Source of the DNA: Lunularia cruciata
Lineage: Eukaryota > Streptophyta > Marchantiopsida > Lunulariales > Lunulariaceae
Assembly (NCBI GenBank): GCA_948567375.1
Contig: OX419756.1
Location: 47,754,333 to 47,818,332, forward strand
DNA length: 64,000 bases
Direction of reading: 5' to 3'
In this document: positions 1 through 59,200 of the stretch, piece after piece
How positions within the stretch are numbered: position 1 is the first letter of the stretch
Layout of the letters: each line of letters begins with the position of its first letter
Notes under the pieces: generated by a model
What the model saw: the letters and a program-made list of their open reading frames with translations, nothing else
What the model was told of the DNA's origin: nothing
The model's database searches: none
Program-made: the position numbers and the translations under genes

Positions 1-94
1 TTTACGCTATGCAACCATTCGAGGAGGAGGTTATAGACCCTCGATCCTTCAATTTCATCCAGGCGACTATGTATATCTACAACAGACAGCACCG

Positions 95-427
95 ATGACA
101 CTTGATGTTTTGACAGGCCGCACTATCTTGAGAGTGCGCAAGGTTTTGCCATCTGGAGTCCTTGTGTTAGAAGGACGTGATGGTGTTGTTTGGAAGGATC
201 ATGTGCACAATTGTGCGCCATGCCACCTCCCAAACATTGATGGTACTATGGACCCAAGCTTGGCACTTGTACGTGCAGGCTTGAAGTGTATGTTATGTGG
301 CTCTTCTGGTGGAGCTGCTACTATGTTAGTGTGTGATAGCTATTCGAGAGGATGGCATATGGCATGTATGACTCCTCCCCTCACGGTGGTTCCTCAGGGA
401 CAGTGGTTATGTCCTAGATGTACTTGA
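95..427 (+). other. Integrase C-terminal domain fused to a PHD finger (part of copy A)
   Basis: The frame runs from the SH3-like C-terminal part of a retrotransposon integrase into a C4HC3 PHD finger. The zinc ligands are visible in order: CMLCG, then CDSY, WHMAC, and a closing CPRC just before the stop. PHD fingers read histone H3 tails in the nucleus. By analogy with chromodomains at the same place in chromovirus integrases, this one may steer integration to a chromatin state. That role is inference. The coding frame begins upstream of 95, since the integrase fold is already under way at position 45; the first ATG is not a real start. Confidence 0.78.
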
Positions 428-596
428 CCTATAGCTAGTTCATTCTTGATATGGTATAGATTGCAGACAGGCGACTAACGATGGGGCTCCATAGCACCCG
501 GCCTCCTGATCTTTGTCCATTAGAGGGTATACCATATACTTAGAGTAGATGGCTATTTGGAGTTAGAGGGACCTAACCGCCAGCTAGGGGGGCGAT

Positions 597-701
597 TGTG
601 GCACTTTAGAGTCTATGTATGACTTATGTGTGAGTTGTGCTTCTATAGTGTATGATGTTGACAACGATGTATGTTGTGTAGCGATGTATATACGCACGAC
701 A
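597..701 (+). repeat. 105-bp unit R1 upstream of the copy A LTR
   Basis: The unit starts TGTGGCACTTTAG and ends CGCACGACA. It recurs almost unchanged at 1156-1260, 16463-16567 and 17021-17125, and with a few more differences at 34171-34275. It lies between the polypurine tract and the LTR, where no sequence is expected in a normal element. Confidence 0.9.
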
Positions 702-703
702 AC

Positions 704-1260
704 TGTCACGCCATTTGTAGTTCCGCATCTAGATGCTCGGACACTAGAGTTCCAATGATAGTAGTTAGAGTTATTCTAGCAGTTTCTTAGAGACTACTTT
801 CCAACGGTTAGATTTTGTGTTTGGGGTACTGACTTCACGGTGGGGCCCACCGTCACTTTGCACTGTTTGCACCGTCGAGTGTGCCGTCAACGGGACCGTT
901 AGGGTTTCAATGCTAGCTCGAGTCCAGGGGGTATAGTTTTGAAGTGAGCTCCAGAGAGCTCACTTCTCTGATGTTGAGCCTTCGAGTTCTTGGCTATGGT
1001 GGACAGAGGCCGGCGAGCGTCACCTGGATTCTCTATGCTTGAGTGGGTGTGGCTTGACTGTAATCAGTGCCCAGTTGTTGGTAGTTTATAGAGTGAGAGA
1101 TCAAGTACTGATCTCTCACTCTAGTTGAGTTGAGAGTGTTAAGCAATCTGATTATTGTGGCACTTTAGAGTCTATGTATGACTTATGTGTGAGTTGTGCT
1201 TCTATAGTGTATGATGTTGACAGCGATGTATGTTGTGTAGCGATGTATATACGCACGACA
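704..1260 (+). repeat. 3' LTR of copy A (557 bp)
   Basis: The LTR starts TGTCACGCC and ends CACGACA, so TGTC...GACA form the inverted termini. Its last 105 bp (1156-1260) repeat R1. The limits are set by the solo LTR at 34171-34726, which has the same two ends and flanking target duplications. Two internal inverted repeats (around GAGCTC and GATC cores) may fold into hairpins. Confidence 0.85.
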
Positions 1261-3992
1261 CCATCCTTCTGGTTCTCCTACGCAGTCTCTTTTCCCTAAC
1301 TACAAAATACTATAAGACATCTGATTTGGCTGTATTTATTCTTTCCCTCAAGTGGATAATTAATTACACGCTGAAATCTCCTGATGCCAGTCATCAGTAT
1401 ATCAGTTCATGATTAATGAATCTTGCTTGCAACTCAACATTTGAGGGTACCCAAAGATCAAATAGGTCTAATCCATTTGATGTCCTCTTTCCTATAAGGG
1501 TTACTTTCAGCCACTCTTTCAGTTTCTTTTCCTTATCTCTCAAGGGTAATCAAATAAGTTTGGTCTTAATTAAACACTAAATCTTCCTTTCAAATTTAAG
1601 AAAAAAGATCTTTGCACAGTATTGTGGTAAGATCTTTCATACCTTAGGTGCATGTATTTTGAACAGCAGAACTGCATGTCAAAAAATCTTCCAATTAATA
1701 GGACTCTTATGCAGTTAGATTCATCTTATAAATTTAGATATACGTCTACCATGGTACTCTCATGAAGGAGATCAATAAAAAGGCTGAAATTCTTTGTGTA
1801 CACGGAACTATTTTAATCTTTACTTTATATAAGATACTAAAGTCATATTCGAATTGTGCGACTTTAGATTATGTGCATTGAAGACAAAGCCAAATTCTCT
1901 CGGTTAATAGAGATAATAGAGAAACGGACGTGGGTATCACAAATCGTAGACTCAAGAGATTTTAAAAAGTTTCTTACGGAAGATTCTTTGGCTCAAGGAA
2001 GATCTCGAATACGTACGGACAAGACCTGATGAAGTGTTTTTCTGTGAAAGTCTGTTTTTGTGAAAATCAAAGGATTTGAAATGTTGAGTTTCATTCATTA
2101 TCTTGTCAAAAGTCATCTTGCAGATTTTTCGATGAAATCGGTCGTCATCTGATTATCACATTCTTGCAAATAGAGGTATAATTCCTTCTATTACTGGTAT
2201 AAACTTCTACTGGAAGAAGTGACAAAGGTAAGACGGAAGGCAGACACAACAACGACTAGGAACTTTGCATAGTGAAGAATGGTGGTAATCATCCGAACAG
2301 ACAACTTTCACTTCCAAACTTTCAGTTTCCAAACATGACATGACAACTTTCACTTCTGAGAACCATGCACATTGGTCGCACTGGTGGCTCTAGGTTGGAA
2401 GCATATAGTCACCTCATTCTTGTTCGTTGTCAAGCGATTCCTACAGAAGAAGGCATAATCAGCTGTCTCAGATGGCCAGAGATCCTTATTTCTGGACCTT
2501 CCCACCAAATTAATATAGTCATTTGTATATCATCAATCCTCGCTACGATATGCTATGCTAGCCTTTTTCGCTTGTTTCAGAATAGAGTCAGTCACTGGAC
2601 ACACTGTAAAGGCTCGATTTCGTATTTGAACGTCATTTCAGTGGTCACTTTATTTCATTTTCTGCGTGCGTAGTTGCCAATTATGTTTGCTTTGATGAAC
2701 CAGGCAATTGCTTGCCTCTATGTTAGGACACTTATACCCAAGTGCGAAAAGACATCCATATAATTGTGCTTGCATTCCAATGTCGACTGTCAGTTGTTGA
2801 TACTAGTCGATAGGGATACCACTTGAGAAGAGACTCACTAACCCGTCTTGTTACGAAGGAAAAAAAAATTTAAACGGGCGTTTTCTCTTCCTTTCATATT
2901 TCTATACCAATAGGAGACAAAAAAGGTTTAAGAGCGGTTATTATTGTACTAATTGGATGGTATGTTGTTTTTTTAATTTTTTTTGAAGTTAAGAAGATGG
3001 ATAACCGATACCGGGTCCCACGTCACCGTGTCAACATTATGAACACATGCTTACGTAGTCGTGTTTGGCACTATAAAAGAAGCTCTCGTCTTATAATGAC
3101 ATGCTCTTCCGGACGTTGAGTTCCAAGATGGCATCAAGTCGGGAAAGAGGCTGCATTTCTTTCGAGGCGTGGAAAGACATCTTTCTAGCCAAGTTCCGGA
3201 AACACGTCCAAGTGCACAGCCCGGGATCCACGGCCCCTCTGCGAGGATCGCAGGGTTGGTACGTTGGAGGTCCGCTTGTCTTCTCTTGTTGGCCAAACGA
3301 CAGTTTCGGGATTCCCTTTTCCTAATAAGGCCCGAAAATATTCTCTATTCGGGCACTGTCGGGTGGTATTTCTAAGTAAAAAGCGCAAGCTGAGAGACGT
3401 TTCTTGGTAGTGCTTTACGAGAATAGTAACTAAAAAGATTAAGATGGCTCACGGTAACATCAATTATTGCCAGAAGCGTGCATTATTAAAGGCTAATCAT
3501 GAACGCATTTCTAGTAAACTTAAGGCTCCACCAAAGCAAATGAGGAGTCCTCTTTTTCTCATAGTGGGATGACGAGGGTTGAATCTCTAGTAAGAGAAGA
3601 AAGGGGGAATGGTTGTAGAATTAGTTTCTCACAAGATGTTACAACTTTAAAACTCCCGACAGAAGAGCATAAAATTGTTGCGGACAAGAGACATTCGATC
3701 ACCTCAAAATGATGATCTGTCGCGATCACACCTTAATGAGAAGCAAATGAGTTTCCCTCTTTTGAAAAAAGTATATATATTATGCATGCCGTACGATGCA
3801 CCTTACTATGATGGGGTGGATTTCCATTAATAATATAAAACACTGCTTGTATCCTTAACCAAACATATGCTATCACAAATGCTGCAAACACAAAATCAAA
3901 ATCAGAATCAGTTCTTCACACTTCGAGCTTATGGATCCTAGAACTGTCTATCATAACAGGGAAGAGAAGTTTGGTCTTAATGTTTTTCGTAT

Positions 3993-16015: not shown

Positions 16016-16462
16016 TGTAATACCAAGAGTTAGCCATATGATCTAGATGTGAAATTCGGTTTGGTAACATCTAGAATGATGTTATACATGATGGTCAAAA
16101 TAGATCAGATAGAAGTATCACCAAAAGAGTACTTCTACTAATAGGGCAGAAACCAAAATAGACTTGAGAACCTTAGAACAAATAGCTAGACATATGATTT
16201 AAAGGTGAGAATTGGTTTGGTAACATCTGGAAGGATGTTACACATGATGGACTAAACAGATCAGAAAGAAGTGTCACCAAAAGGGGACTTCTACTAATAG
16301 AGTAGGAACCGAAATATGCCTGAAATCTTTGAAGGTAATTTTGGAGGCCTAAACGGATGAATTAGGCCTAAAAAATGTGCAAACCCCCCCCCCCCCCCCC
16401 CCAATAAAGTGAAGGCTGGCCTTCCCTCCCCCCTACTTTGTCTTGTCGAGAGCTTTCCAACG
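16016..16462 (+). repeat. 5' LTR of element D, left piece
   Basis: It starts TGTAATACC and aligns with the first 450 bp or so of the 3' LTR at 31682. It contains a run of 19 cytosines (16384-16402), shorter in the 3' LTR. It ends at the insertion point of element B. Confidence 0.88.
16459..16462. repeat. Left target duplication of element B (AACG)
   Basis: AACG precedes the B terminus and AACT follows the other terminus at 26250-26253. The uninterrupted 3' LTR of D reads CCAACGGTACC at this point, so the site was AACG and one base of the right copy has changed. A 4-bp duplication agrees with the solo LTR at 34171. Confidence 0.72.
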
Positions 16463-17018
16463 TGTCGTGCGTATATACATCGCTACACAACATACATCGC
16501 TGTCAACATCATACACTATAGAAGCACAACTCACACATAAGTCATACATAGACTCTAAAGTGCCACAATAATCAGATTGCTTAACACTTTCAACTCAACT
16601 CAACTCAGATAAGTACTTGATCTGTCACTCTATAAACTGCCAACAACTGGGCATTGATTACAGTCAAGCCACACCCACTCAAGCATAGAGAATCTAGGTG
16701 ATGCTTGCCGGCCTCTGTCCACCATAGCCAAGAACTCGAAGGCTCAACATCAGAGAAGTGAGCTCTTTGGAGCTCACTTCGAAACGATAACCCCCTGGAC
16801 TCGAGCTAGCACTGGAACCCTAGCGGTCCCACTGACGGCACACTCGACGGTGCGAACGGTGCAAAGTGATGGTGGGCCCCACCGTGAAGTCAGTACCCCG
16901 AACACCAAATCAGACTGTCGAAAAGTAGTCCTTGAGAAACTACTAGAATAACTCTAACTACTATCACTGGAACTCCAATGTCCAAGCAACTAGATGCGGA
17001 ACTACAAATGGCATGACA
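16463..17018 (-). repeat. 3' LTR of element B (556 bp)
   Basis: Bounded by TGTCGTGCG at the low end and GCATGACA at the high end. The first 105 bp on the plus strand (16463-16567) are the R2 copy of the 105-bp unit. Length and ends match the solo LTR at 34171-34726 and the LTR of copy A. Confidence 0.85.
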
Positions 17019-17020
17019 GC

Positions 17021-17125
17021 TGTCGTGCGTATATACATCGCTACACAACATACATTGCTGTCAACATCATACACTATAGAAGCACAACTCACACATAAGT
17101 CATACATAGACTCTAAAGTGCCACA
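17021..17125 (-). repeat. 105-bp unit R1 of element B
   Basis: A near-identical copy of 16463-16567, two bases outside the 3' LTR and next to the purine tract. The same placement in copy A shows that this is a family trait rather than an accident in one copy. Confidence 0.9.
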
Positions 17126-17289
17126 ATCGCCCCCCTAGCTGGCGGTTAGGTCCCTCTAACTCCAGATAGCCATCTACTCTAAGTATATGGTATACCCTCT
17201 AATGGGCAAAGATCAGGAGGCCGGGTGCTATGGAGCCCCATCGTTAGTCGCCTGTCTGCAATCTATACCATATAAAGAATGAACTAGCT

Positions 17290-17681
17290 ATAGGTCAAGT
17301 ACATCTAGGATATAACCACTATCCCTGAGGAACCACCGTGAGGGGAGGAGTCATACATGCCATATGCCATCTTCTTGAACAACTATCACACACTAACATA
17401 GTAGCAGCTCCACCAGAAGAGCCACATAACATACACCTCAAGCCTGCACGTACAAGTGCCAAGCTTGGGTCCATAGTACCATCAATGTTTGGGAGGTGGC
17501 ATGGCGCACAATTGCGCACATGATCCTTCCAAATAACACCATCACGTCCTTCTAACACAAGGACTCCAGATGGCAAAATCTCGCGCACCCTCAAGATAGT
17601 GCGGCCTGTAGAAACATCAAGTGTCGTCGGTGCTGTCTGTTGTAGATATACATAGTCGCCTGGATGAAATCGACGGATCAA
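17290..17681 (-). other. Integrase C-terminal domain and PHD finger of element B
   Basis: The minus-strand frame starts with the SH3-like integrase tail (FHPGDYVYLQQ, TGRTILRVRE, VLVLEGRDGVIW) and runs into a PHD finger with CMLCG, CDSCSRRWHMAC and LTVVPQG. Copy A at 45-427 shows the same junction. PHD fingers bind histone H3 tails, most often methylated or unmodified Lys4. A role in target-site choice is inferred from the position, which is that of the chromodomain in chromoviruses. Confidence 0.78.
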
Positions 17682-17882
17682 GGGTCTATAACCTCCTCCT
17701 CAAATGGTAGCATAGCGTAAAGTATCTCTATGCTGAGCAATTGCCAAGTTCTCAAAGGCCATCGGCATCACTCTCCGAAAGATCTCTACCCGCTGAGAAC
17801 ATGCGCTCATCCATACATCGGGGTCATCCAAGTCCAAAACTATAGTAGCATCTTGACAAATGGCTGCAGGTAAATCTGGATC

Positions 17883-18650
17883 TCATCCATAGAGTAGAAA
17901 GTATGGAGAGAAGGATGCTAAGGAGGCTTGCCGGCTAAACCAATAGCCCATGGCTAACCAAGGTAACTGGAGATCCCAATCTCCCAAGTGGCCTCTCTGC
18001 AAACCATACTTTTGCAATCCTCTCTTCACCGTCTGAACCACTCTCTCTGCTAAGCCATCTGCCTCAGGGTGATCTCGGGATGTAGTATGATGATCAATCA
18101 AAGCCTTGTCACACAAGACCTGAAACTCTCCCAAGAACTTTGTACCCTGATCAGTCAAAACCTCAGCTGGTGCACCAAAATGACTAAGAACTCGATCCAG
18201 GAACGAGTAAGCTGTCCCTTCACTAGACTTGTCAAGAAGTGCCACCAACTCAATCCACTTGGAGAAGTGCTCCACCATCACCAAAACATATCGATGATGT
18301 CTCACAGTCAGCGGTAAAGGGCCGGCAAAGTCCAAACTCCAACGGTAACCCAATCCCATGATAGGTAATGGGTGTAATTGTGGCATAGGAGCATTGAATG
18401 ATGCTCTAACTCGGTCACAAACCATACATCTGGCAACAAACTGCTGTACCTCGGTCTGCATACCGTGCCACCAATAATGACTCTGAAGTAAGCTATATGT
18501 ATGCTTTACTCCAAAATGTCCTAGCTCCTCATGAGCATGACGGACCAACTGTGGTCTCTGTGATGGAAGTGGTACTACTCGCACTCTACCATCCTCCCAT
18601 ACACGCAAAAGGTGTCTACCCTCCAATCTGAACCGTTTGGCTCGCTGAAG
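17883..18650 (-). other. Integrase core of element B
   Basis: The frame shows the HHCC-like zinc region (HAHEELGHFG, then CMVCDRVRA) followed by the catalytic fold (WSLDFAGPLP, VLTDQGTKF, HPEADGLAERVVQTVKRGL). The Asp-Asp-Glu pattern of retroviral-type integrases is visible. It would act on element cDNA in the nucleus. Confidence 0.85.
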
Positions 18651-19115
18651 AACACGGTCTCTCTCCTTGGCCCCAACTGTGCCACCCACAACACCAGTGC
18701 GAAGATAGTCCATCACTAAGACATCATCATGAATGTCCTGCTGAACTGTACCAATATCTTCACTCTCTGGATCTGTGACCTCAATGACTCCTCCTGTATG
18801 CGCTGAGAGAGATACCACCAAAGTCTCTGCAAATATACACAGAAAGGCCGATGCATGCCAACCTGGCACCATCTCCTCATCTGTCTCACCATGCCAACGT
18901 GCTCCAGTCTGATCCTGCTGGCTGGGACATGGGTTTCTACTCAACCCATCTGCATCACGGTTCACCACTCCAGGTCTCTGAACAACCGTGAAATCATACT
19001 CCTGTAAAATCAGAGCCCATCGTGCAAGCTTCCCTGAAAGCTTGTCGGACTCCATCAACCACTTCAGCGGCTGATGATCAGTGATGAGAGTGAAGGGGTT
19101 ACCAAATAGGTAACA

Positions 19116-20300
19116 TCAAAAATGTGCTACTGCCCAAATTGCTGCCAAGCACTCTCCCTCATATGAACTATACTTCACCTCCGCTGAATTGTTGGAGCGA
19201 CTAGCATAGGCCACCACAAACTCCTTCTCCTCATCATCATGTTGGGTGAGCACCGCTCCAAGCCCCAACATACTCCAATCAGTGTGAACTTGAAATGGTC
19301 GTCCCTTGATTGGTCTCCTCAAAATAGGAGTAGATGTCAACTTCTCCTTGAGCTCTACAAAAGCTCTCTCCTGCTCATCTCTCCAACACCACTCTTGTGT
19401 AAGCTTGGTCAGCTTTGTCAAGGCCTTGGCAATGGCACTAAATCCTCTAACATAGCGGCGATAGAAGTTCGCCAACCCAAGGACTGCTCGCACTCTGCTC
19501 ACATCCGTAGGCCGAGGAATATGTGCAATAGCCTCCACCTTGGTCTGCTGGACACCAAGTCCTCCGGGGTAGATAGTGTGACCCAAATACTCAACCTGCT
19601 CGTGGAAGAACCTACACTTCCCAGGATGTAGTTTGAGTCCATGAGATCTCAACCTCTCAAACACCTCCAACAACTGTCTCTCATGCTCCTCCACAATAGT
19701 GCTATAGACCAAAATGTCATCAATATAACACCGAGCAAAATCCAATCCAGCTAGGATCCTATCCATGACCCTCTGGAACTCAGCAGGAGCATTCTTCAAC
19801 CCAAATGGTAAGTACCTCCACTGATATAACACATCCTTGCCGTGAGGATCAATAGCCCAAAATGCTATCTTGGACTTATCCTCCTCCCTGATTGGCAACT
19901 GATGATATCCCGCTCAAAGATCCAAAGTACTGAAGACCTTTGCATGCCCAATTGCATCAAAAATCTCCTCCGGTGTAGGCATGGCATACCGATCAGCCCT
20001 GGTCTATCGGTTGATAGGATGGTAATCTCCACACATCCGCCTATCTGTATAGTTGCCATGCATATCCTTCTTGGCTGGCATCACTGTCGCTGATGCATAC
20101 TCTCCATGTGAAATCTCCACCAAACCAGCCTCAAAAAGGTCACTACTCCGGCTCTGAATCAATGTCCTCTCCATATCACTATATTGATAAGGACGTCGGA
20201 AAATAGGTGTGTCGCTAGTCAGCTCAATCCGTATACCAGGTCCCTTCAAAGCACCCAAATCCTTCATACTGAAGGCAAAACAACTCGTGTGACTCCTCAA
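19116..20300 (-). other. Reverse transcriptase and RNase H of element B
   Basis: The reverse transcriptase is recognised from YLPFGLKNAPAEFQRVM, the YIDDILVYS catalytic box (about 19709-19735) and YLGHTI; the thumb shows VLGLANFYRRYVRGFS. The RNase H start is marked by FQVHTDWSMLGLGAVLTQ. The N-terminal fingers lie at 20004-20300. All features are typical of Ty3/Gypsy. The region is broken. Confidence 0.88.
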
Positions 20301-20739
20301 GAACCTCCAAACCCTCCGTCTTTCCTCTCCAGTAAGCTTGGGTCCAAGATCTGGCTCCCAAGTATCCTCTGTAACTGTAGTAGGAGTGGAAGACGTACTG
20401 ACTGGTTGCTACACTGGGCCCTTGGGAGCAATAGTGTCATGCTCCCGACCACTAGAGGTCCCAACCTCTGTGTGAAAAACTCCCTCCACTCTGGCTACAA
20501 GCTCCACATGTCCTCTGGCTGCATCCCATGTGGACCAAGGGTGTAATCCAAGTAGCCCACGCTCACCTGGATGGACTCCAAGTAGACCACTCTCCCTAAT
20601 AGCTACTGGATGTGTCCTAAGAATACCATGTCCACTCGATCCATCGCCCCCCGCATGTGCCTGAATTGTCTCGATAGGCACAGGGCTCACAAGTGTCCAA
20701 GTGGTGATGCCTATCAAGCACATCCTACGCTGCTCTGCC

Positions 20740-21701
20740 AAACCAAGGCTCACAATCCAGGTCAAACAATTCAAGTCCATAGCCTGACCTAACACCTGAT
20801 GCCTGGATGCCTCTGACACTGCTGGAACAGCGGTAATACCGGTGCAAAAACCCATCACCCGCTCTCTTTCATCAGCATTGAGCTCCACCAACTGCTGTAA
20901 CTGAGAGTCCCAAACAAGTCCAGGTCCTCCCTCTCAAAAAGCATGAGAGTCTGGGAAACTCATGAGTGTGGGAAATGCAGCTCTAGGCTGTCCAACTAGG
21001 TTCACCACTGCCATAGGTGACCTATCAGCCACTACCACTATCTGAGACTGACGTCCAACATCCAAGATATCATCAACAAGAATGTGGTCTAGTCGTTGAA
21101 TCCCATCATAACTACGCTGTAGAACCTCTTTGGGTAAGAGGTTCGTCCACCAAAGACGAAGACAATGAGCCTGTGATCCCACTCTGGCTGCATCTAACAA
21201 TACAGCAGGTCCCATCCATGAATGGACCTAATGTGTACTCGCCACCACTCTAGTGCAAGAATCACCCATCAATGGAACGTTCTCCAAAAGGTAAGCTGGA
21301 GAAATAGACTGATGAACTTGGAGATGTCGTAGTATCCGTAACATCTCCCAAAACACACCAAAACGAGGATCTTGAAGACCCAAACCACGGCCCGCACGTG
21401 TATGTCCCTGACATGGCCATCCAGAAATCACCAAGTGAATAGGCCCATGTCTCTCTAGGTCATGCGCCCCCAGTAAGGAAATGTCTCCTGGTAAGGCCTT
21501 CTGGTAACCTCTGACTGCTGACATCGGTAATAACTCTGGATACCAATAGGCCAAGTGTGCCACATGATGTAGAGAGACTCGCCTAGCAGTCTCATCTCTC
21601 TCTACATACAAGTACCTCTGTACTCGGGTACCCGCCTGTAACACCGCAGCAAGTCCGGTGCTGATCCCACCAAACAACTCCAATAGGCATATCCCCTCTA
21701 C
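20740..21701 (-). other. C5 cytosine DNA methyltransferase domain inside element B
   Basis: The order of C5-methyltransferase motifs is visible on the minus strand. Motif I is ELFGGISTG at about 21690. The motif II-like acidic step is YVERDE. Motif IV is SGWPCQG, with the catalytic Cys, at about 21410. Motif VI is LLENVP at about 21280. The motif VIII-like region is LRLWWTNL, and the motif IX/X-like end is ERVMGF followed by VLGQAMDL. Length (about 320 codons) and spacing suit a compact Dnmt3-type catalytic domain without N-terminal regulatory regions. The enzyme family transfers methyl from S-adenosylmethionine to cytosine C5 in DNA. It sits between protease and reverse transcriptase in the same orientation as the polyprotein. 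The region is broken in this copy. Subfamily (Dnmt3, DRM, Dnmt1 or bacterial-like) is undecided by eye. Confidence 0.85.
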
Positions 21702-22089
21702 TGGGTACTGCCAAGCAATGAGTGTGGTATCCAGAGGTGTCAAAGCAATCGCCTCTGGAGGCTCATCCTCACACTCATCCCTTGATGGTACAAAGGCTCC
21801 ACTCCAAGCCTGCTGCACCAACTGATCTTCATGCTGCTGCAATGCCTCCTCTGAACTCCACAATGGAACATCCAAGGTGGATGGAACAATCCCACTCGTA
21901 CTCCAAAGTTGAGTGATCTCCTCTGGTACTAGAGTATCCTCTGCATGGGCATTCCCCTCCAACAAGTCACCAGGCCAAGTAACTATATCGTTGAAAGCTA
22001 AAACTGATGCTACCATGGTCCCAGATTGTAGTGAGTCAGGACTGCCACTACTGAAGCGTACTGGTAGGCGACATACCCGTCCCTCAACA

Positions 22090-22440
22090 GACTGCCAACC
22101 AGGTCTATAAGAGGTTGTCTCCTCCCAATAGTCAATGCTAAAACCCATAGGGTATAACACTGCTCCCCCAACTAGCACATCATATGACTCAGCTATTGTT
22201 GCAATAGCCTGAGCTCTCACCACCGAGCTATCAGTCGGATGACCAGGCTGAACCTGGACAACAAGCTCTCCACGTGTGATGTACTGTGTCGAACCACCAC
22301 CAAGAGATGTCTGGATCTGAAATGGACACCTCTCCACATCGGTCTTCCGTAACTCCAGACCAACAACTGCAGCCTTCCCCAACATAAGGGGCTGTGCACC
22401 AGAGTCTAACAAGACTCTCTGTGGTATATAGACCTTCCCT
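22090..22440 (-). other. Aspartic protease of element B
   Basis: RVLLDSGAQPLMLG gives the active-site Asp-Ser-Gly of a retropepsin fold. A downstream ESYDVLVGGAVLY stretch corresponds to the second conserved strand. It shares one long open frame (21228-23288) with the start of the methyltransferase, so protease and methyltransferase were translated together. Confidence 0.78.
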
Positions 22441-23140
22441 GAAGGTCCCACCAAACGAAAGATCCCCCTCTGGTTATCCAATAGGACAACACCAGGTGTA
22501 AACCACACTCTCTCAAAGGCCGGTCTAGCTAGCAACTCCTCTAGTCTAGCCGCTGCTGCCTGCCATAAACCACTGGTCGCTGAACGGATCACATGCTCCT
22601 CAACCAAGTCAGATCCACTACCAACCACCTTTGCTCTAGTAGTAAGAACTGCACTATCCCTACTCTCACACAACGTGGCAGCCAACCGGAACACTGGGGC
22701 TGGGTCAACTCCTAATGTAAACATGTCATTAGCTAAAAACAAAGGATGCCTTATAATCAGCTGAGCCACCCCCAACATCATGCTAGACTCAGTTTGTGTA
22801 GTAGCAGGTGGCTGACTAGTAGGTACTCCATCAGGTACTCCATCACCACCTACCACACCTGCACTGGGACGTCTAGGAACCATGGATGTTGTCTGTAATG
22901 CCTCAGATAGCATGAAAGATTGGGGAAGTCTGACCTGTCTCCCAACCTCTCCTCTCTGCGGGTCCAACTCCACTGATGCTCCTCTAGGCTCTGGAGCACG
23001 TACTGCACTCCTAGTCACTACTGCAGATGCATCCACCTGTGCTGCTCCGCACATGAAGTCCAAAGCATCTCTATCACCCGCATATGAGGTGGAAGCCTCA
23101 GCACCCAAATCTGATCTCCTCTGAGCAATAGCCATACTAG

Positions 23141-24679
23141 TCAATCTCTGCTCCAACTGCTCAATCCGAGTAGCCATAGCTGTGTCAGAAGTAAGGGCAG
23201 GTACTGCACCCCTACTAGGTGTAGATCCTCTACCACCACCTCTACCACCTCGTCCTCCATGAACTGGAGCTCCTCTATTACCTGCCATAGCAGCCCTACC
23301 ACTCCGGAACTCTGGGTGTAGGTCGAAACACGGTCACTAGTGTGACCAAATCTGTGGCAGTGCTCACACTGCCTTTGTGCTGGCTGTGATGCACCAGAGG
23401 TATCAGGTCCGCTGCCCTGAGTACACTCTCTTCTATGGTGAGGTCCACTACAAGTCCAACAAGCAACACCACCACTCACTGGCTGCTACTGACCCAAAAA
23501 TGAGGGTAAGGGTCTAACTCCACTAGGCCCTCCACTTGCTCCATAGGATCTGGGCTGTCCACCCTGTCCTCAAAAACCAACTAGGCGTGGTGCACTCTGC
23601 TGCACTCTAGAAGAAGTCACAACCGTGGATGAGGTCTCTCTACCAAATCCAGCTGTCACCACTCTCTCCTCCACCATGTTGAGCTCAATACTCTCAGCCA
23701 AACCAAAGACTACTGCCAAAGTGGGCGAAGTAGCCTGCAACAACATAGCATCACGAACTCTACGTCACAACTCCTTGTCCAGTATCCCATACCAAAACTG
23801 GACTGCCTGGGCCTCAATAACTCCCTGAGTGAAACTGATCAGCCGCCTCATGCGAGTATATGCCTTGCGTAGGCTCTCTCCAGCCTTCCACTGGAACTCT
23901 TGCAAGCTCCTCAGCTTGTCAGTCCGCACTCCCTGGTAGTTCTGCCTCAAACACAAGAAGAACTCCACCATGGGGTTAAACCCCGGTACCACATCACCTC
24001 CTGTAGCGGTACCTCCACTTGTAGTAGCACTATCTCCAGCTAATGCACCTCCACTAGCTCCACCAACACTACTCAAGCTAGAACTCGTAGGTACAGCCGA
24101 TCTACTCCTGGCCACCAAGCCTGAAGTGATGGAGATATAGTGTGGAGACCAATACTGTCTCCATAACTCAATCTCCTCCAAATGAGCTCTCCTGAACTCA
24201 TGGTAGTCATCCATCAGCGGACCCTCCAGATGCTGTAAACAACCCCTTCCATGCCATGAAGGGTGTGAACAAAGTCGGGTTCCGCATCTGCTGCAGATCA
24301 CATCAACTATCAAACTCCTGGATGAAGTCATCCAACTCAATGGTACCCACTGTACCAAAGTAACGCCTAGGGCCTTTGGAGGCCCCATAAATCTTGTCCA
24401 TGTCCCACAACAATGGTGCGAACACACTAAGTGTGCTCTCAACTGAATCAGCTCCTATGTCAAACTCCAACTCAGAGTCAATCTCCTCCCTCACTGGGAC
24501 CTAAGATACAGGCTGATACTGAGCACCACTCCGAGTAAACCCATTGCGTACTGCAGGGCTAACTCCTCTGGAATCTCCAAAGAACTGGGTCGTGACCACA
24601 TAACTGCAATAGCAAACCCGAACCACCAACTGCAACCGCAAGTCGCAACCGCAAGTGCCCCACCAAGTGCCAACACCAA
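23141..24679 (-). other. Gag region of element B with zinc knuckles
   Basis: The frames hold a gag-like helical region (FFLCLRQNYQGVRTDKLRSL, then EFQWKAGESLRKAYTRMRRL, at about 23830-23970) and two knuckle-like motifs (CWTCSGPHHRREC and CEHCHRFGHTSDR, about 23330-23460). Gag would form the particle. The region is broken. Confidence 0.7.
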
Positions 24680-25004: not shown

Positions 25005-25797
25005 TTTGGCATTTGACATAAGAGCAGTTCGTATCTAAGTCCTAAGCTACCAGGATCACCAAGAATGGGATCAAATTGCCTCTCCTAGCCAAAGCTACAT
25101 GTGTATAGATAACAGTGGCGCAATCACTAGGACAACAAGTGAGGGTGGACTAGTTGGCTAGGGCACCAGTCTAAGAACAAGAGATCTAGGGGTCAAACCC
25201 TGTTGCGCACAATCTAGCAAGATAGGCAGATTTTGCCAACCAATGACCAAGATCTACTCTAAACTAGCTAGTCTCACGCCAACAATCTGGCCCTTCTAGG
25301 CCTTCATAGCCCACAGCCCTATGCCTCAAAGCCTCTAAATGCCAAAATTCAGCCAAATGAGGCCTTTCTTGTTGCTACTTCGAACGTAAATCTGACGTAA
25401 ACCCTAAAGATGAATGTCCGCCAAATCCCCCTCTAACTTTCCACTCGAGCCAAATTGACAAAACGGGTTTTTCCAAATCACAATTTCATAAGAAGAGCTT
25501 CCCAACTCCACCTTCAATTTCACTTTCTGAGCCCAACTCGCAGCAAATTGGTCCTGCCTTCACCTCTTGAGCTCAAAATCACAACATTGCTCAAAAATTG
25601 CTCCTTCTTTGCTCAAAATTTGACCAGCGCTTCCGCACACCGTCCGCCTAACTGCCAAATTCGAATCACTTGAACGAGCTTCTACACACTAGGGAAACAC
25701 AGAACTTGAATTGAGCTACCACAATCCACCAAGCTTGGAGATACCACCAACACTCAACGTTCCTGCACCCGATTTCCCCCTGACTTCACTTCTCTGA
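25005..25797 (-). other. Leader between 5' LTR similarity and candidate primer site of element B
   Basis: About 790 bp with no counterpart in the 3' LTR, in copy A or in the solo LTR. No gene is evident. It may be part of a longer 5' LTR, an acquired leader, or the product of a recombination. Confidence 0.5.
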
Positions 25798-26249
25798 TGT
25801 AATCAGATTGCTTAACACTTTCAACTCAACTCAACTCAGATCAGTATTTGATCTGTCACTCTATAAACTGCCAACAACTGGGCACTGATTACAGTCAAGC
25901 CACACCCACTCAAGCATAGAGAATCCAAGTGACGCTCGCCGGCCTCTGTCCACCATCGCCAGGAACTCCAAGGCTCAACATCAGAGAAGTAAGCTCTCTG
26001 GAGCTCACTTCGAAACTATACCCCCCTGGACTCGAGCTAGCACTGGAACCCTAATGGTCCCGCTGACGGCACACTCGACGGTGCAAACGGTGCAAAGTGA
26101 CGGTGGGCTCCACCGTGAAGTCAGTACCCCAAACACCAAATCAGACTGTCAAAAAGTAGTCCCTGAGAAACTGCTAGAATAACTCTAACTACTATCACTG
26201 GAACTCCTGTGTTCGAGCAACTAGATGCGGAACTACAAATAGCGTGACA
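25798..26249 (-). repeat. 5' LTR of element B (452 bp, without the 105-bp unit)
   Basis: It matches the 3' LTR from its outer GACA end to TGATTA, then stops where the 105-bp unit should begin. About 30 of 450 aligned bases differ from the 3' LTR, mostly transitions. Plus-strand ends are TGTAATCAG and GCGTGACA. Confidence 0.82.
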
Positions 26250-27149: not shown

Positions 27150-28640
27150 AACCATGGATCCGCAATTGCAAGAGTTGGTGCAAGGAATGCAAGGGATGTT
27201 GAATGAATTTTGAGAGATTAAGATGACCATGGAGACATTACAAAGTCAAGTGCAAATCCTCAGGAATGATCAAGCCATGCAAGAAGAAGAGCCATCTCAA
27301 AACCCAGTACCTGCGATTGAAGTACTTGGAGAGGCATCCGTGCCTACAAACCCTATCAAAAATGAAGCCACATTGCTACTCCGGATGAAGAAGACCTGCA
27401 ACATCAAACCTTACAAGGGGAAGCGTTTGATGGGAGTAGTGGAAAATTGGATCTCAAGAATGAATCGATATTTCCGATTGTTCTCAACAGAGATCACAGA
27501 GCATGTTGCAGGCGTGTTTGCATGTGGGTACTTGACCAATAAAGCACTCACATGGTATGATGCTTGGGAACGATCCATGCTGGTAGAGAGAAGGAAGGTC
27601 ACATGGACAACAATGCAAGAAGGACTGCTGAAGAATTTCCAACCGGTGGATTCTGTGCAGATGGCTCGAACCCGACTATGGGTATTGAGATAGAAGAATA
27701 GCGTACAAGAGTATGTGGAGGCTTTTCTGGATCTACAAGTTGCAATTATCGACATGAGCCCAGCAGAAGCTCTTGACAATTTCAAACAAGGGTTGAAAGA
27801 GCGGATTCGCCAAGAAGTCATGGTGCAAAATCCTCGCACGGTATTTGAAGCCATTGCTTGTGCGCAGAGAATAGCAGGAACATTAGGTGGAGGTGAAGGA
27901 GTAGCTCCACCTCAACATTATTGGGCAGAAATGCCACACATGGGTGGACCAGTACCAATGGAATTGGGCAACCTTTGATTCCGAGATCAAGGAGCACGAC
28001 CGCTTCAAGGGGAGCGGGGACGGGTAGAAGAACGAAGAGATGGAGTCCCACAAGGAGAAGGGACTCGAGGAGAACAATGCCGTTGTTACAATTGTGGCTG
28101 TATTGGACACATATCTACCAATTGTCACACTTGTTTCCCTAGAGGCCCTCGGCCTTCATTCTTGCAATCTTTGAACAACATGGAGAGGCACATTGATGAG
28201 GAGGAGGTGGAAATCACTTTGGAAAACAAAGATCGCTAGTAAATGTACCTCGCGGCCTTACTGGCTCAATAAGGAAGCAGGGAAGCAAGGGAAGGAAGAA
28301 GAAGAATGATGCGCAACAATCCCAAAAGGAAACCTCACAATTGATTGTTGTGAATGGAATCCTAGAAGGTAATCAAGTGAGAGTATTAATAGATCCGAGA
28401 GCAACAAAGAATTTCTTGTCTCGCTCTGTTGCAATAACATTGGGAATGGATCTAGAGAGAGATGGAAGTGAAGAAGTAGAGTTACCAAATGGGCAAATAG
28501 AGAGGATTGAATCATTACCTAGACGGGTAACCCTCTCTGTAGGAGAATATCAAAAAGCAATTGAGTGGCGAGTGATACAGTTAGCTCGTTATGATGTAAT
28601 TTTAGGCATGCCATGGATGGAGCAGTACAACCCTATGGTG
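27150..28640 (+). other. Gag and protease region of element D
   Basis: The gag domain is recognised from WISRMNRYFRLF and YLTNKALTWYDAW, a zinc knuckle at about 28078-28130 (CYNCGCIGHISTNC), and the protease from [15 protein letters not shown] with the later [10 protein letters not shown]. Order and motifs are those of plant chromoviruses. The region is broken. Confidence 0.82.
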
Positions 28641-28799
28641 GATTGGAGGAAGAAAGTAGTGAGAACCCACCAATGGTCAATCATTGGGGTTAAAGAAAAA
28701 TCACATAGGCAAAAACTGCCTCTATATGTTGTAGGGACGGCAATTGTCTGTAAGATTGATAGATGTTTTATGGGTCTAATAAGAGAAGTCAAGAGTGCA

Positions 28800-30150
28800 C
28801 AACTTGATAGACAAATTCCTGAGAAATTTAAGGATGTGGTGGATGAGTTTCAAGATGTCTTTCTCAATGATCTACCTTCAGGATTACCACCAAAAAGGCA
28901 AGTAGATCACAAAATTGAGACACTTCCGAAGAAGACGCCTCCTTGTAAGGCCCCATATTGCCTATCACCTCATGAGTTGGAGGAGTGTAAGACTCAAATT
29001 GAGGAGATGTTACAAAAAGGGTTCATCCAACCTAGCGTATCACCATATGGGGCCCCTGTCTTGTTTGTGAAGAAGAAGGATGGTACAATGCGCATGTGCA
29101 TTGACTATCGGGGTCTCAATCAGCAAACAGTGAAGAACAAATACCCCTTACCTCGCATGGATGACCTATTTGATCAACTCCATGGAGCGAGATACTTCAC
29201 CAAACTAGACTTGCAAAGCGGTTACAATCAAATCCAAATTGCAGAGGAGGATGTGCATAAAACTGCCATTTGAACCAAGTATGGCCACTTTGAGTATCTT
29301 GTGATGCCTTTTGGCCTCACCAATGCACCTGCCACTTTCATGAGTCTAATGAATGACATATTTCATCCATACTTGGATAAGTCTGTTATCGTCTTCTTGG
29401 ATGATATCTTAGTATACAATAGCACGATGACAGAACACAAACAACGTCTACGAGAGGTCCTCTAGATTCTAAGACAGAATTAGTTGTATGCCAAAATCTC
29501 AAAGTGTGAGTTTGGCAAGTCTGAAGTAGACTACTTGGGGCATAGAGTAAGTGCAGAGGGCATTCAAGTATTGACAGATAAAATAGAGGTCATTCAAAAA
29601 TGGAGTGCCCCAAAAGATCAGACTCAACTTAAGAGCTTCTTGGGGTTGACGGGATTCTATCATAGATTTGTCAAGGACTTCTCCAAGGTTGCATAGCCTT
29701 TAACGGCACTACTTGGCAAGGGGAAGAAGTGGACATGGGGAACTGCACAAGAATTGGTCTTTCAAGAATTGAAGGCCGCCTTGCTACATGCACCAATCTT
29801 GAAGTGGTATGACCCAAAACGTCCAATCAAGTTGGCTACAGATGCATCAGGCATAACAATAGGAGCAATCCTACAACAAGAGTGGCATGACGGATGGCAT
29901 CCAATTGCATATTTCTCTCGAAAGTTGTTACCAGCAGAGTGCAACTACCACACCACAAAACGAGAAGAGTTGGCGATCATTTCTAGCAACCAAGCATTGG
30001 AAGCACTACTTGGGCAAGAAGGCATTTGTAGTAGCGACAAACCACAAACCTCTAGTCTACCTCGAGACGCAGAAGGATCTATCTCGTCACCAAATTCGGT
30101 GGGCAGAGTGGCGACAACACTTCAACATGATAATCACCTACGTGGAAGGT
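28800..30150 (+). other. Reverse transcriptase and RNase H of element D
   Basis: [30 protein letters not shown] and the [11 protein letters not shown] catalytic box (about 29390-29420) give the reverse transcriptase. LATDASGITIGAILQQ and AYFSRKLLPAECNY give RNase H. The region is broken. Confidence 0.88.
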
Positions 30151-30379
30151 AAGAAGCAACTTGCAGATGCATTCACCTGCATGCCAATGGCCAACAACTT
30201 GGTGGCAGAGGTTAAGATTAACCCTGAATTCTGGCAAGAGATTCTGGCGGCTACAAAAACTGACCGACAGATTGTAGAAGCACAATCATCCAAAGGTGTC
30301 ACTAATACCCAAGGACTCACCTTTCAGGATGGCAGATTATGGATCACAAATGTCCTAGAATTACGCACCACCATTCTGG

Positions 30380-31668
30380 CGGAATGTCATGATTCGGCCA
30401 TTGCAGCTCATGTCCGAGTGGACAAGACCTTGGATGCAGTCAAGCGACATTATTGGCCCAAGATGAGCAACAACGTGATGGACTATGTGCGTAGCTGCCT
30501 ACTTTGCCAAGAGAACAAAGCTTCTAATCAAGCTCCTGCAAGGCTCCTTCAACCTCTCCCCACTCCTACCCAACGTTGGGAACAAGTGAGTATGGATCTC
30601 GTCTGTGAATTACCCAAGATCACCTCAGGGTTTGACTCCATTGTAGTCTTTGTGGACCGGATCAGCAAAATGATTCATGTACGCCCTACCACCAAGGAGG
30701 TGACCGCTCCACAACTAGCTCAATTATACTTAGATGCAGTCTTTGCTCACCATGGCTTGTCTAGAGTACTCATCACCGATAGAGGCACCCAATTCACCAG
30801 CTTGTTTTGGCAACCACTCTTTGGGTTCTTCCAAACCAAGTTGGCCTTGTCCACAGCTTACCACCCCCAAACAGATGGCCAAACAGAGCGGGCTAATTGC
30901 ACAATTGAAGACATGTTACGCGGCTTCACCTTAGAAGAGCAAGAGAGGTAGGACACCCTACTCCCATTGGTGGAATTCGCTTACAACAATTCAGTGAATG
31001 CATCCACCCAGGTCACTCCATTCTTCCTCATGTATGGTGAGCATCCCTTCACACCTTCTAGCTTGATGAAGATCCGTCCAGTGGCTACCAAGGTCAATGC
31101 AGTCAACACATTTGTTTCTAGAATCCAACAAGGTGTGGAGAGCGCCAAGCACAGATTATAGATTGTGCAAAATCGACAAAAGCAGTATGCTGATGCACAC
31201 AGTCGGCACATGGAGTTCAATGTTGGGGATCAAGTGTGGCTATCGACAACCAACCTCACATTAGTTGGACCTCGTAAGCTTAGACCTCGTTTTATTGGGC
31301 CTTTCTCGATTCTTCGTCACACTGGCGCTGTGGCCTATCACCTTGAGCTCCCACCACACATGAAGATCCATCCAGTGTTCCATGTCTCCCTACTACGCAG
31401 ATATGCTCCCCGATCAGGCCAAGGTCATTCCACACCAGACATTCGACCTTGTCCGACACTCATTGATGGCATAGAGGAATATGAAGTGGAGCGGATTCTC
31501 CAAAAATGCATGTGTGGTACTTGCCACCCGCGGGTGGACTATCTCGTACAATGGAAAGGTTACCCCCTCTATGAAGCCACCTGGGAGCCTGCTACCAATT
31601 TGGCACATGCAATTGTGTTGGTGCAAGCACTTGAGCAACAATTGCACAATGAGGACGTTGCGTCTTAA
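30380..31668 (+). other. Integrase and chromodomain of element D
   Basis: The integrase shows a zinc region (CLLCQENKA), a catalytic fold (MDLVCELPK, ITDRGTQFTS, YHPQTDGQTERANCTIEDML) and a GPF-type C-terminal module. A chromodomain follows at about 31470-31620 (VERILQ, then VDYLVQWKGYP and ATWEP). Chromodomains of chromoviruses bind methylated histone H3 and are known to direct integration to heterochromatin. The region is broken. Confidence 0.88.
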
Positions 31669-34170: not shown

Positions 34171-34726
34171 TGTCGTGTGTGTATACATTGCTACACAACA
34201 TACATCGCTGTCAACATCATACACTATAGAAACACAACTCACACATAAGTCATACATAGACTCCAAAGTGCCACAATAATCAGATTGCTTACCACTCTCA
34301 ACTCAACTCAACTCAGATCAGTACTTGATCTGTCACTCTATAAACTGCCAACAACCAGGCACTGATTACAGTCAAGCCACACCCACTTAAGCATAGAGAA
34401 TCCAGGTGACGCTCACCGGCCTCTGTCCACCATAGCCAGGAACTCAAAGGCTCAACATCAGAGAAGTGAGCTCTTTGGAGCTCACTTCGAAACTATACCC
34501 CCTGGACTCGAGCTAGCACGGAAACCCTAACAGTCCCGCTGATGGCACACTCGACGGTGCAAACGGTGCAAAGTGACGGTGGGCCCCACCGTGAAGTCAG
34601 TACCTCCGAACACCAAATCTGACCGTTGGAAAGTAGTCTCTGAGATATTGCTGAAATAACTCTAACTACTATCACTTGAACTCCAGTGTCCGAGCATCTA
34701 GATGCGGCACTACAAATGGCATGACA
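34171..34726 (-). repeat. Solo LTR of the A/B family (556 bp) with 4-bp target duplication
   Basis: It has the full LTR, including the 105-bp terminal unit at 34171-34275, and TGTC...GACA ends. GATT is repeated on both sides (34167-34170 and 34727-34730). It most likely arose by recombination between the two LTRs of a complete element. This copy fixes the true LTR limits for the family. Confidence 0.88.
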
Positions 34727-34730
34727 GATT

Positions 34731-56225: not shown

Positions 56226-59200
56226 TTAGGTGGTCAATATTGAGGGTAGCTTCTCCTGGAAACTTCCAAGAACAAGAGCCTCAGTGTCTGGGAAGTGGGA
56301 CTGACCTGGCAACTCTGTCACTTCTCCTTCATGACTGACAGTGATGGGGAAAGGAAGAAGGTGTCCTTCAAGATCCACAGATTCTTCCTGAACGTAGTCG
56401 GCCCATAGTTTATCTGCAATTGCATTCACGGTTTGGACACACTCCAAACTTGCTGGCTGGAAGAAGCAATCCTCGAGTTTGAGCATGTGTTCATACCACA
56501 AGGACATCCTGAAGCCATGAATCTGTCCTTTGGGCAAGCCATCATAGCCGGCAATACGGTTAGGCTGGTATGCACCGATAGCAATTTCTGAGTCTCGAGC
56601 TCCGTTCATAGATCGCTCGTTAATGTTAGCAGACCCCACGATAATGTACTCATCATCAACTGCAATAGCCAAAATATCTCACCATCAGCTAAAATCTTCT
56701 AACAAAGTTTACTAAAGAATTCATTCTCACGTAATCCATTCCGGAAATAGTGAACAGCTAAAAGTAGCAATTCAAGTTTAAGCAACGGCTTATCGTCATA
56801 TCATAAGTGCATTCCCATCTTGCGCGATATCTACTTCCCTTCCTGCTGCTTCTACTATCAACCAACTCCGATAATCAATCAGATGGTAGACCACAATGGT
56901 GCTGTATGGAAAATCTAACTCAGAGAAACAACTGCATCATATACTAGGCAGCAACAAACCGAGCTCACATTTCAAAACAGAGGTAGAAAGGAAGCGATAC
57001 TGACCAATCATCATCTTTGAGTGTACGTAGATCATGAAGCGCCGAGCAGACTGCGCTCTAATATAGTCTGTGCCCTCCTCGGGGTGATTCTCCGGTTGCA
57101 ACTCCCCATCTGAATACGCCTCACGGTTACCGAGGCAGTAGAAATTCAAGTAGTCTCGTGGACTCTCTTCACTTCCAGCGGCACGTAGAGCATCAGCAAT
57201 AAGTTTGTACATCATTTCCAATGTTCTGCGCATCCAGTCCAAAATAGCCTGCACTGAACCACTTTCAGGTGCACCTTCAGGCCACATTGGGCACACGACG
57301 TACACTGCAAACCGCTCACCAGCTTCGATCTTGCTCACAATCTTCAAGGCCAGCTCCCTTGGGATAAGATGGGATGCTCCGGAATCCTGCTTCGAATCCC
57401 AAGCAAATGCACTTCCGAGGAAGTACTGGTTCTCGATGTATATGTAATCCTTGGCTCTTCTGATGGCGTTGATGTATGCATCCTGGATGGATCGGTCGAT
57501 AACATTGTCCTTTCCACTAACAAGTCCTGCCTTGCAAGCCTCCTCGGGCTCCTCCGGGAAATCCACAGCACCATTATCGATGGATCTGAACAACTGGACA
57601 TTCCACGATTCGGGATCTTCCTCCTCGGTAACAGGAGTGGGTGGCTCCATATCTTCCAGGTCAGGAATGGCAACCAGCCTCTCCTGTCGTTCCTCTCCAG
57701 CCTGCTTCCTCCACCTCTGCTCAAAGTTGTACAGTATATCCCACGCGATAGGACCCTCAACTTGGGAATGAATATCGTGCCAGGGTTCACGAGGACCTCC
57801 ACACTCAATCGATGCTCCGGCGAAATTGGGTTGATGGAAATCGTCACGGTTCACAGTTGCCAAGGTACGGAAAATAGGGTGCTGCTGGGTGTCATATCGT
57901 CCATCGCAGAGATCAATACCTCCGACCATGCTAATAATTCTCCGAGGACCACCCTCATCTCCTCCTGGCACAGGAGCATCGACAATCAAAGTCTTCTGAT
58001 GATGAGTGAACATGGTACCGATCTGAATACCCTGAATAATGCTGAGACCATCGTCAGGGTTACGTGGGCAGAGGACACAGCTAACATCTGTGCCTTCGAA
58101 GAACTTCTCGGTGTCCTCGTCGTGAGTAGCCATCAGCCCATCTCTCTTCAAAAAGTCGATGGAAGTTCTGTCATCCCAAACCAAAAGGTTAACTTTCACT
58201 CCTTCTTCCGCCTTGCGCAACAACAATTGACCCAAAGTCACTCCTTCCGCCCCTTCAATCATCCTATCCTGGTCCCGGATGAGCGTGATCTCAGTATAAA
58301 CAGACCATCCTGTAATGTATATAATATGACGAGCATTGTTTATCATGTGGTAGACATCTTCCCAGCAGCGAGTAGGTTCTTTCACACTTCCATCATCCAG
58401 GTAAATTTCGGGCAAGAACCCATCATGCATATGACTGTCCTGGTAGAGCTTGACTCTACACCCTTTCCGCTGGGGGTAGAAGGTGTAGGGAACACCCTCG
58501 TAGTCGGACCTACTGATTCCGCGTCCCCAGTGCTCGTCATCAACAGCAGCGAAATACTGCATCCTGAAGCGGACTTTCCCTTCTCCGCCCCTGACAGGCT
58601 CACCATCATCCCTGAACAGATCATACCAGTCGTCAATCACCTCACCTCCGTTTATCTCTGTGGCTGGGACCTTAGCTCGGCCTATCAAAGAAGCACCGAT
58701 GGTGTTATCATCTTTGACAGTGATCACTACGTCGGTGACATGATGTGCAGCGTAAATCCGGAAAGACTCATTCCAAACTGGACGCTCAGGTTGGTCTTCA
58801 ATTATCCGAGTTCTTCCGACTCGAGTTTTGCCCAGATCTACCGTAGCATAAAGTCTGCTCTTGCCACTTCCAGTACCAAACGTGTCCTCCACGCTCTCCA
58901 CAAGCTGCAACAGAAAGGAGACATGCACTGCAGTTTAGTATCACTTTGATTCGGCGAATCAGCTGATACTTTATCTCAGTTACCTCCAACAAGACTTTGT
59001 GAACATTTCTCTAAGCAGGGCCAATCAGAGGTTCTGTTGGGCGATCAATCCACCTCCAACCAATCGATGGACGGCTTTCTCATCAGTTTTAAGTCCAAAC
59101 TCTAGCAGGAGTGAAGCCAGTTAAACATTGTCCTCCGTTAGCTGAGCTTCTATAAGTCCTGTACATATTCTCAAGGACCAGGTTTTCTCATGACACTGGC

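Follow-up and report, generated by a model that had tools for sequence, protein, structure and literature searches.

Does a land plant host a retrotransposon that encodes its own DNA cytosine methyltransferase (MTase), and if so how is the element built, where does its enzyme come from and what might it do? The question is raised by a 64,000-nucleotide (nt) stretch of the liverwort Lunularia cruciata (contig OX419756.1; hereafter the window), in which an earlier note, made from the letters alone, had claimed a C5-MTase within a Ty3/Gypsy retrotransposon. According to an excerpt of PMC9985172, the 580-Mb assembly of this host has been enlarged by Ty3/Gypsy bursts. The analysis described here indicates, with a probability of roughly 0.7, that one member of a multi-copy Ty3/Gypsy-type family lies in the window in decayed form, with a DNMT3-like MTase in its single pol frame.

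A methyltransferase domain within a Gypsy-type pol frame

On the minus strand, the pol frame extends from position 23333 and closes with a stop at 17297; it has nine in-frame stops (four TAG and five TGA) and zero frameshifts. The domains it encodes are, in order, a protease, the DNMT3-like MTase, reverse transcriptase (RT), RNase H, a DDE integrase and a PHD finger, which is the Gypsy Pol order of protease, RT, RNase H and DDE integrase with the MTase inserted between protease and RT. The note had placed C5-MTase motifs in order between protease and RT, with the protease and the start of the MTase sharing one long frame, and both were found on the minus strand at the places it gave. It had also treated the coding sequence as separate frame pieces; the split is real, but its cause is the nonsense stops in one frame and not a frameshift.

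C5-MTase motifs I (LLELFGGISTGL, 21651–21686), IV (ISGWPCQG, 21405–21428), VI (LLENVP, 21273–21290), VIII (21141–21185), IX (20847–20885) and X (20769–20804) follow one another on the minus strand. The profile check proposed for the piece with ELFGGISTG and GWPCQG was positive, the open reading frame (ORF) piece 21228–23333 matching PF00145 across residues 616–689 (E=3.8e-6, 27 bits, cut-off 22), and the 150-amino-acid piece 21228–21680 matched DNMT3A in the PDB (5.8e-5). Pieces 20934–21227 and 20409–20933 alone gave no Pfam match. In the intact relative P0001 a single match to the phage family phrog_116 (5.1e-22, residues 345–663) spanned motifs I to X. DNMT3 was the nearest solved fold and the nearest sequence for the element MTase, with the family profile giving 2.1e-18 for DNMT3A/B versus 0.0021 for DNMT2. 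Bit scores against P0001 were 97 for the best phage C5-MTase, 67 for human DNMT3A and 47 for the host DNMT3 exon, the compared sequences being of unequal length. The DRM-type rearrangement (VI–X before I–IV) was not seen in the element MTase, whose motifs are in canonical order, and a DRM origin was ruled out by this order. The catalytic motif IV reads WECQG and not WPCQG in P0044, P0054 and P0057 (Closterium and one further relative), which is unusual for a C5-MTase.

At least 59 homologues were found in a first sequence search and 136 by profile search (best 120 listed), with both searches scoring the 8,000 best candidates. Hosts named among the matches listed were Marchantia polymorpha, Calypogeia fissa, Sphagnum troendelagicum, S. 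jensenii, S. fallax and Closterium sp.; no Klebsormidium, hornwort, fern, lycophyte or seed-plant name appeared among these matches, which does not imply absence from those groups. A small number of Marchantia and Sphagnum proteins have the database label cytosine methyltransferase, and parts of the family were therefore already visible.

The host genome contained at least 123 places scored by PF00145, out of 2,161 loose candidates. Examination of 28 of the 123 identified 24 element copies and four host-gene-like places. Eight of the 28 were given as loci, comprising four element copies and four that look like host genes, two DNMT3-like, one DRM-like and one CMT-like to judge by their motifs; twenty further places, hand-picked along the list and not random, were all element copies. 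The two DNMT3-like host genes have introns (L042, L043), and the DRM-like and CMT-like genes were seen as exons (L002, L003). All 24 other copies carry the MTase domain, at 93.0–96.1 % identity to the window over 1,086 nt. This bears out the claim of a land-plant Ty3/Gypsy-type pol with a C5-MTase and the expectation of further family members. The note had named, as one of the findings that would overturn its reading, a domain present only here as a separate insertion. That alternative, or an assembly artefact of one copy, retains next to no probability and was ruled out by the frame shared with the protease, by the 24 other places that carry the domain and by the relatives in other species. 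Among the copies, the 3' end of another copy (B-A-B; L067, 1792–2456) lies about 90 bp downstream of copy L045.

Element layout and split direct repeats

Two direct repeats bound the element, A of 450 nt and B of 107 nt, in the order A1–internal–B1–A2–B2. Both ends were compared in ten other copies, namely those with the lowest locus numbers among the twenty hand-picked places. The features of the window are as follows.

25800–26249, minus strand: repeat A1, the 5' end of the element (starts TGTC, finishes CTGATTA), 93.3 % identical to A2 over 450 nt
25786–25800, minus strand: putative primer-binding site, matching a repeat A segment in reverse complement (15-nt match in A2 at 16747–16761, 12 nt in A1 at 25979–25990)
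23765–24454, minus strand: gag-like ORF piece of 229 amino acids, assigned by position and by eye from likeness to relatives; no Pfam match
23141–23485, minus strand: CCHC zinc-knuckle region (Cys/His pattern by eye)
22140–22412, minus strand: retropepsin-like protease (DSGAQ ... YDVLVG), assigned by motifs; no Pfam match for the window piece
20769–21686, minus strand: C5-MTase domain, motifs I–X in canonical order, two in-frame stops (motifs, Pfam, PDB and fold matches)
19116–20408, minus strand: RT and start of RNase H, interrupted by in-frame stops (PF00078 8.5e-25 and PF17919 5.7e-28 in 19116–19913)
17883–19115, minus strand: remainder of RNase H, then the DDE integrase with H2C2 and rve (PF17917 1.4e-10, PF17921 8.7e-18, PF00665 1.9e-11)
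17297–17699, minus strand: C-terminal PHD finger of pol, in frame with the rest (PF00628 1.1e-7 for 17319–17699)
17128–17140, minus strand: polypurine tract AGCTAGGGGGGCG, immediately before B1; pattern in eight of the ten other copies
17021–17127, minus strand: repeat B1, 99 % identical to B2 over 107 nt
16569–17018, minus strand: repeat A2, by repeat comparison; B1–A2 joint GACA-GC-TGTC
16463–16569, minus strand: repeat B2, by repeat comparison, the 3' end of the element (finishes GACA); flanks of the element AGTT/CGTT, three of four bases alike
1–1261, plus strand: second copy (94.5 % identity), cut by the window edge so that its 3' end alone is present, with PHD finger, polypurine tract, B1 (595–701), A2 (704–1154) and B2 (1154–1261)
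34171–34727, minus strand: solo A–B repeat, by repeat comparison, with TG...CA ends and an exact 4-bp target duplication (AATC)

Some assignments draw on relatives: piece 20004–20408 alone gave no RT match and was assigned to RT by eye from P0003 and P0026, and the protease of P0057 matched PF13975 at 7.1e-6, slightly under the family cut-off. In place of the C-terminal chromodomain of chromoviruses, the element has a PHD finger; this finger is also C-terminal in the Marchantia polyprotein P0028 (4.4e-9), and its pattern occurs in nine of the ten other host copies (exception, L051).

A1 stood at the 5' end without a preceding B in all ten copies, and B1–A2–B2 formed the 3' end in nine, with a cut A2 in L047. 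The element lacks two equal long terminal repeats (LTRs), its ends being A1 versus B1–A2–B2, and is therefore Gypsy-type by its proteins only. Its repeats are split direct repeats, split direct or inverted repeats being a trait of DIRS elements, and no tyrosine recombinase was found among the Pfam matches of nine scanned pieces, an rve integrase (1.9e-11) being present instead. Exact 4-bp duplications, with TG...CA ends, flank seven of nine testable copies (L044, L045, L048, L049, L051, L052 and L053; L045 read by hand) and are missing in L046 and L050; the chance of seven in nine at 1/256 each is about 5e-16. The A2–B2 joint GATTATTGTGG is exact in eight of ten copies and the B1–A2 joint follows the pattern GACA-NN-TGTC in seven of ten, with AC as NN in the second window copy. 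Reading the repeats as an ordinary LTR pair, with B1 as a tandem duplication or with the 5' LTR truncated in the focal copy, accords with the solo repeat, which is A–B with TG...CA ends as in a normal LTR, but is very improbable given the ends of the other copies. In addition, an A–B LTR is incompatible with a primer site lying directly against A1 and a polypurine tract lying directly against B1, and none of the ten copies examined was a full copy with A–B at both ends. The split direct repeats, the self-complementary primer site and the PHD finger go beyond what the earlier note described.

Around the element, a 153-nt repeat in two tandem copies (80 % alike, 16022–16330) lies just outside the B2 end. 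A second Ty3/Gypsy-like element (27214–31668, plus strand), chromodomain-like by eye at its C-terminus, lies about 1 kb past the focal 5' end. A phospholipase D gene occupies 56226–58934 on the minus strand. Its exon 56937–58934 shares 82 % identity with Marchantia polymorpha, 79 % with Riccia sorocarpa and 71 % with Calypogeia fissa, which marks the host as a liverwort, most likely one of the Marchantiopsida.

Priming and a proposed replication cycle

The sequence ACATCAGAGAAGTGA directly follows A1 and reads as the reverse complement of part of repeat A. Of 8,643 internal-region windows compared with A2, only that at offset 0 had a complement of at least 12 nt. The complement to A1 is 12 nt in the focal copy; the complement to a copy's own A1 is 15 nt in seven of the ten other copies and 13 nt in one. 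A TATA-like box (by eye) begins 28 nt upstream of the complementary A segment, and in two copies that were folded, an RNA assumed to start at this segment pairs its 5' end with the primer site. A tRNA primer was rejected, as the site has only a partial likeness to an initiator-tRNA site by eye and the self-complement covers it.

A replication cycle of self-primed synthesis, end joining and permuted integration is proposed from these sequences, at slightly under even odds. Transcription would begin inside A1, and the 5' end of the RNA would fold onto the primer site and prime reverse transcription. LTR-type synthesis from the primer site to the polypurine tract would yield a complementary DNA (cDNA) of the form B–A–internal–B–A, because A1 ends at the start of the primer site and B1 starts after the polypurine tract. 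The two cDNA ends would be joined, giving the exact A–B joint, and the integrase would cut one internal B–A joint (GACA-NN-TGTC) to produce the integrated form A–internal–B–A–B. As the A2–B2 joint equals the joined cDNA ends, and the start of A and end of B equal a cut at the B1–A2 joint, the integrated form would be a permuted cDNA. A more speculative extension, doubtful as it stands, is that integration uses circular or end-joined cDNA at the internal joint and not the cDNA ends, so that each insertion would be a circular permutation of the reverse transcript, with the MTase marking the circular intermediate beforehand.

Origin of the methyltransferase

Phylogenetic reconstruction (29 rows) placed the liverwort and Closterium element MTases in one clade (support 99/98), beside a group of DNMT3, DRM and phage sequences (92/92). 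The element MTases were not inside the DNMT3 clade, of which the 29 rows held only three members, hence the label 'DNMT3-like'. The note had left open whether the enzyme was inherited from an algal ancestor or acquired separately. The single clade favours one shared origin of the liverwort and Closterium enzymes over a separate land-plant capture, and capture from a host gene had no support from the tree, since the element MTases were not nested within the DNMT3 rows. The row set included nine of 28 viral loci and five of 172 phage records, with Klebsormidium not sampled; the window row, Sphagnum P0012, P0022 and two viral rows were removed beforehand as short or broken, and P0025 failed the motif filter. 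A search of viral contigs with the window ORF gave no relative; the profile gave the 28 loci with C5-MTases, a selection biased by the pattern AGW[PE]CQG.

Decay and constraint

Across 25 copies, including that in the window, WPCQG and LENV were both conserved in 25 of 25. In-frame stops within the MTase domain were present in 18 of 25 copies and absent from seven. Nearly all stops (28 of 29) are C-to-T or G-to-A changes away from the commonest other codon, and 221 of 253 two-state columns are transitions. Variable sites comprised 54 of 72 in CG, 90 of 129 in CHG and 77 of 356 in CHH contexts, with site totals counted from one copy. This spectrum is consistent with methylated-cytosine decay at CG and CHG and does not reveal which enzyme set the methyl groups. 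Pairwise dN/dS (nonsynonymous over synonymous rate) was 0.42 (ratio of means, 300 pairs, stops excluded), which suggests constraint on the MTase lineage. Counted without a reference, private variants split into 30 synonymous and 49 nonsynonymous, variants found in two to three copies into 8 and 19, and variants found in four or more into 10 and 7.

Possible roles of the enzyme

A role before integration is possible, if slightly less secure than the replication cycle. The MTase would be freed with the other Pol enzymes inside the particle and would methylate, probably at CG, newly made double-stranded DNA that may be circular; copies would then enter the genome already marked, and the PHD finger would help to select chromatin at integration. 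Alternatively, the MTase may act as a restraint, silencing the element's own insertions and limiting host damage instead of protecting cDNA. Slower retrotransposition is raised as one option in the discussion of PMC5890265, as excerpted. The methylated-cytosine decay of the copies also agrees with restraint. Such decay is, however, explicable without the element's enzyme, because DRM-, DNMT3- and CMT-like exons occur in the host genome and CHG decay points to host CMT-type enzymes, and restraint appears unlikely. Action on RNA in priming or packaging, in the manner of DNMT2, is improbable: C5-MTase folds do include RNA enzymes and DNMT2 rows match weakly, but the profile prefers DNMT3A/B by many orders of magnitude and the fold search concurs, with DNMT2 not in the best 50 matches.

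Several observations weigh against this account of the element, its cycle and the pre-integration role of its MTase. The focal enzyme is broken by stops and its motif VIII reads AHCLR versus AHRPR in relatives. The primer complement is broken in two of ten copies (L048 and L050), and the A–B joint could be passed on through a longer RNA instead of by ligation. A1 and A2 are only modestly closer within copies than between them (3.2 % vs 4.3 %, P=0.012), a copy's own A2 is closest to its A1 in only two of ten, and the difference for B1 and B2 is not significant (1.5 % vs 2.1 %, P=0.06); in the focal copy A1 and A2 differ by 6.7 % and B1 and B2 by 0.9 %, for which no explanation was found. The shift in nonsynonymous/synonymous ratio from private variants to those in four or more copies is not significant without a reference (P=0.17). 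The note had referred to reports of such enzymes from dinoflagellates and charophyte algae, and of de novo CG methylation by one of them; in the excerpt of PMC5890265 this was shown in yeast for Symbiodinium DIRS enzymes, while the Klebsormidium Gypsy enzyme gave no methylation there, a result its authors call inconclusive.

Land plants therefore do host mobile DNA with a potential to set epigenetic marks. Relatives of the element occur in the genetic model Marchantia polymorpha, so the role of a mobile DNMT3-like MTase is testable in a transformable plant. The combination of this repeat layout with a DDE integrase provides a natural case for testing whether joined-end DNA can serve as an integrase substrate, a long-standing question in retroviruses.

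Comparison with known systems

The repeat layout is that of PAT-type DIRS elements, which have split direct repeats in the order A1–internal–B1–A2–B2. DIRS elements rely on a tyrosine recombinase and do not duplicate their target site, unlike the liverwort element with its DDE integrase and 4-bp duplications. The MTase shares its fold with DNMT3A/B, plant DNMT3, DRM and phage C5-MTases, and its motif order I–X is that of DNMT3 and not the DRM rearrangement. Tf1/Sushi and Tcn1 elements bear ordinary LTRs. Self-priming is known in Tf1/Sushi and has been proposed for the plant Tcn1 and TAR elements (PMC6317226, excerpt); in Tf1/Sushi and Tcn1, as proposed here, the primer site complements the element's own RNA and no tRNA is used. 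They differ in being chromoviruses, and the word methyltransferase appears nowhere in PMC6317226.

According to a 2019 opinion, as excerpted, land plants such as tracheophytes lack transposons of this kind; read widely, this statement is contradicted by the bryophyte elements. An excerpt of PMC12344493 (2025) restates the presence of such elements in 'streptophytes and dinoflagellates' with reference to the 2018 paper, and a literature search, mostly without subscription papers, found no report of a land-plant DNMT-bearing retrotransposon. SymbioDIRS-Dnmt3 and SymbioLINE-Dnmt of dinoflagellates are also retrotransposon-borne cytosine MTases, in other retrotransposon classes and independently acquired according to the authors (PMC5890265, excerpt). 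The closest known system is KnitGypsy-Dnmt3 of Klebsormidium nitens, described in the same excerpt. It differs in its charophyte algal host, the likeness being one of description and not of sequence, and the excerpted description does not include the PHD finger, primer site, target duplications or joint of the liverwort element. Common to both are a Dnmt3-type domain in a Gypsy Pol, conserved catalytic residues, purifying selection and DIRS-like repeats, the legend for KnitGypsy-Dnmt3 describing a DIRS retrotransposon repeat structure combined with Gypsy domains.
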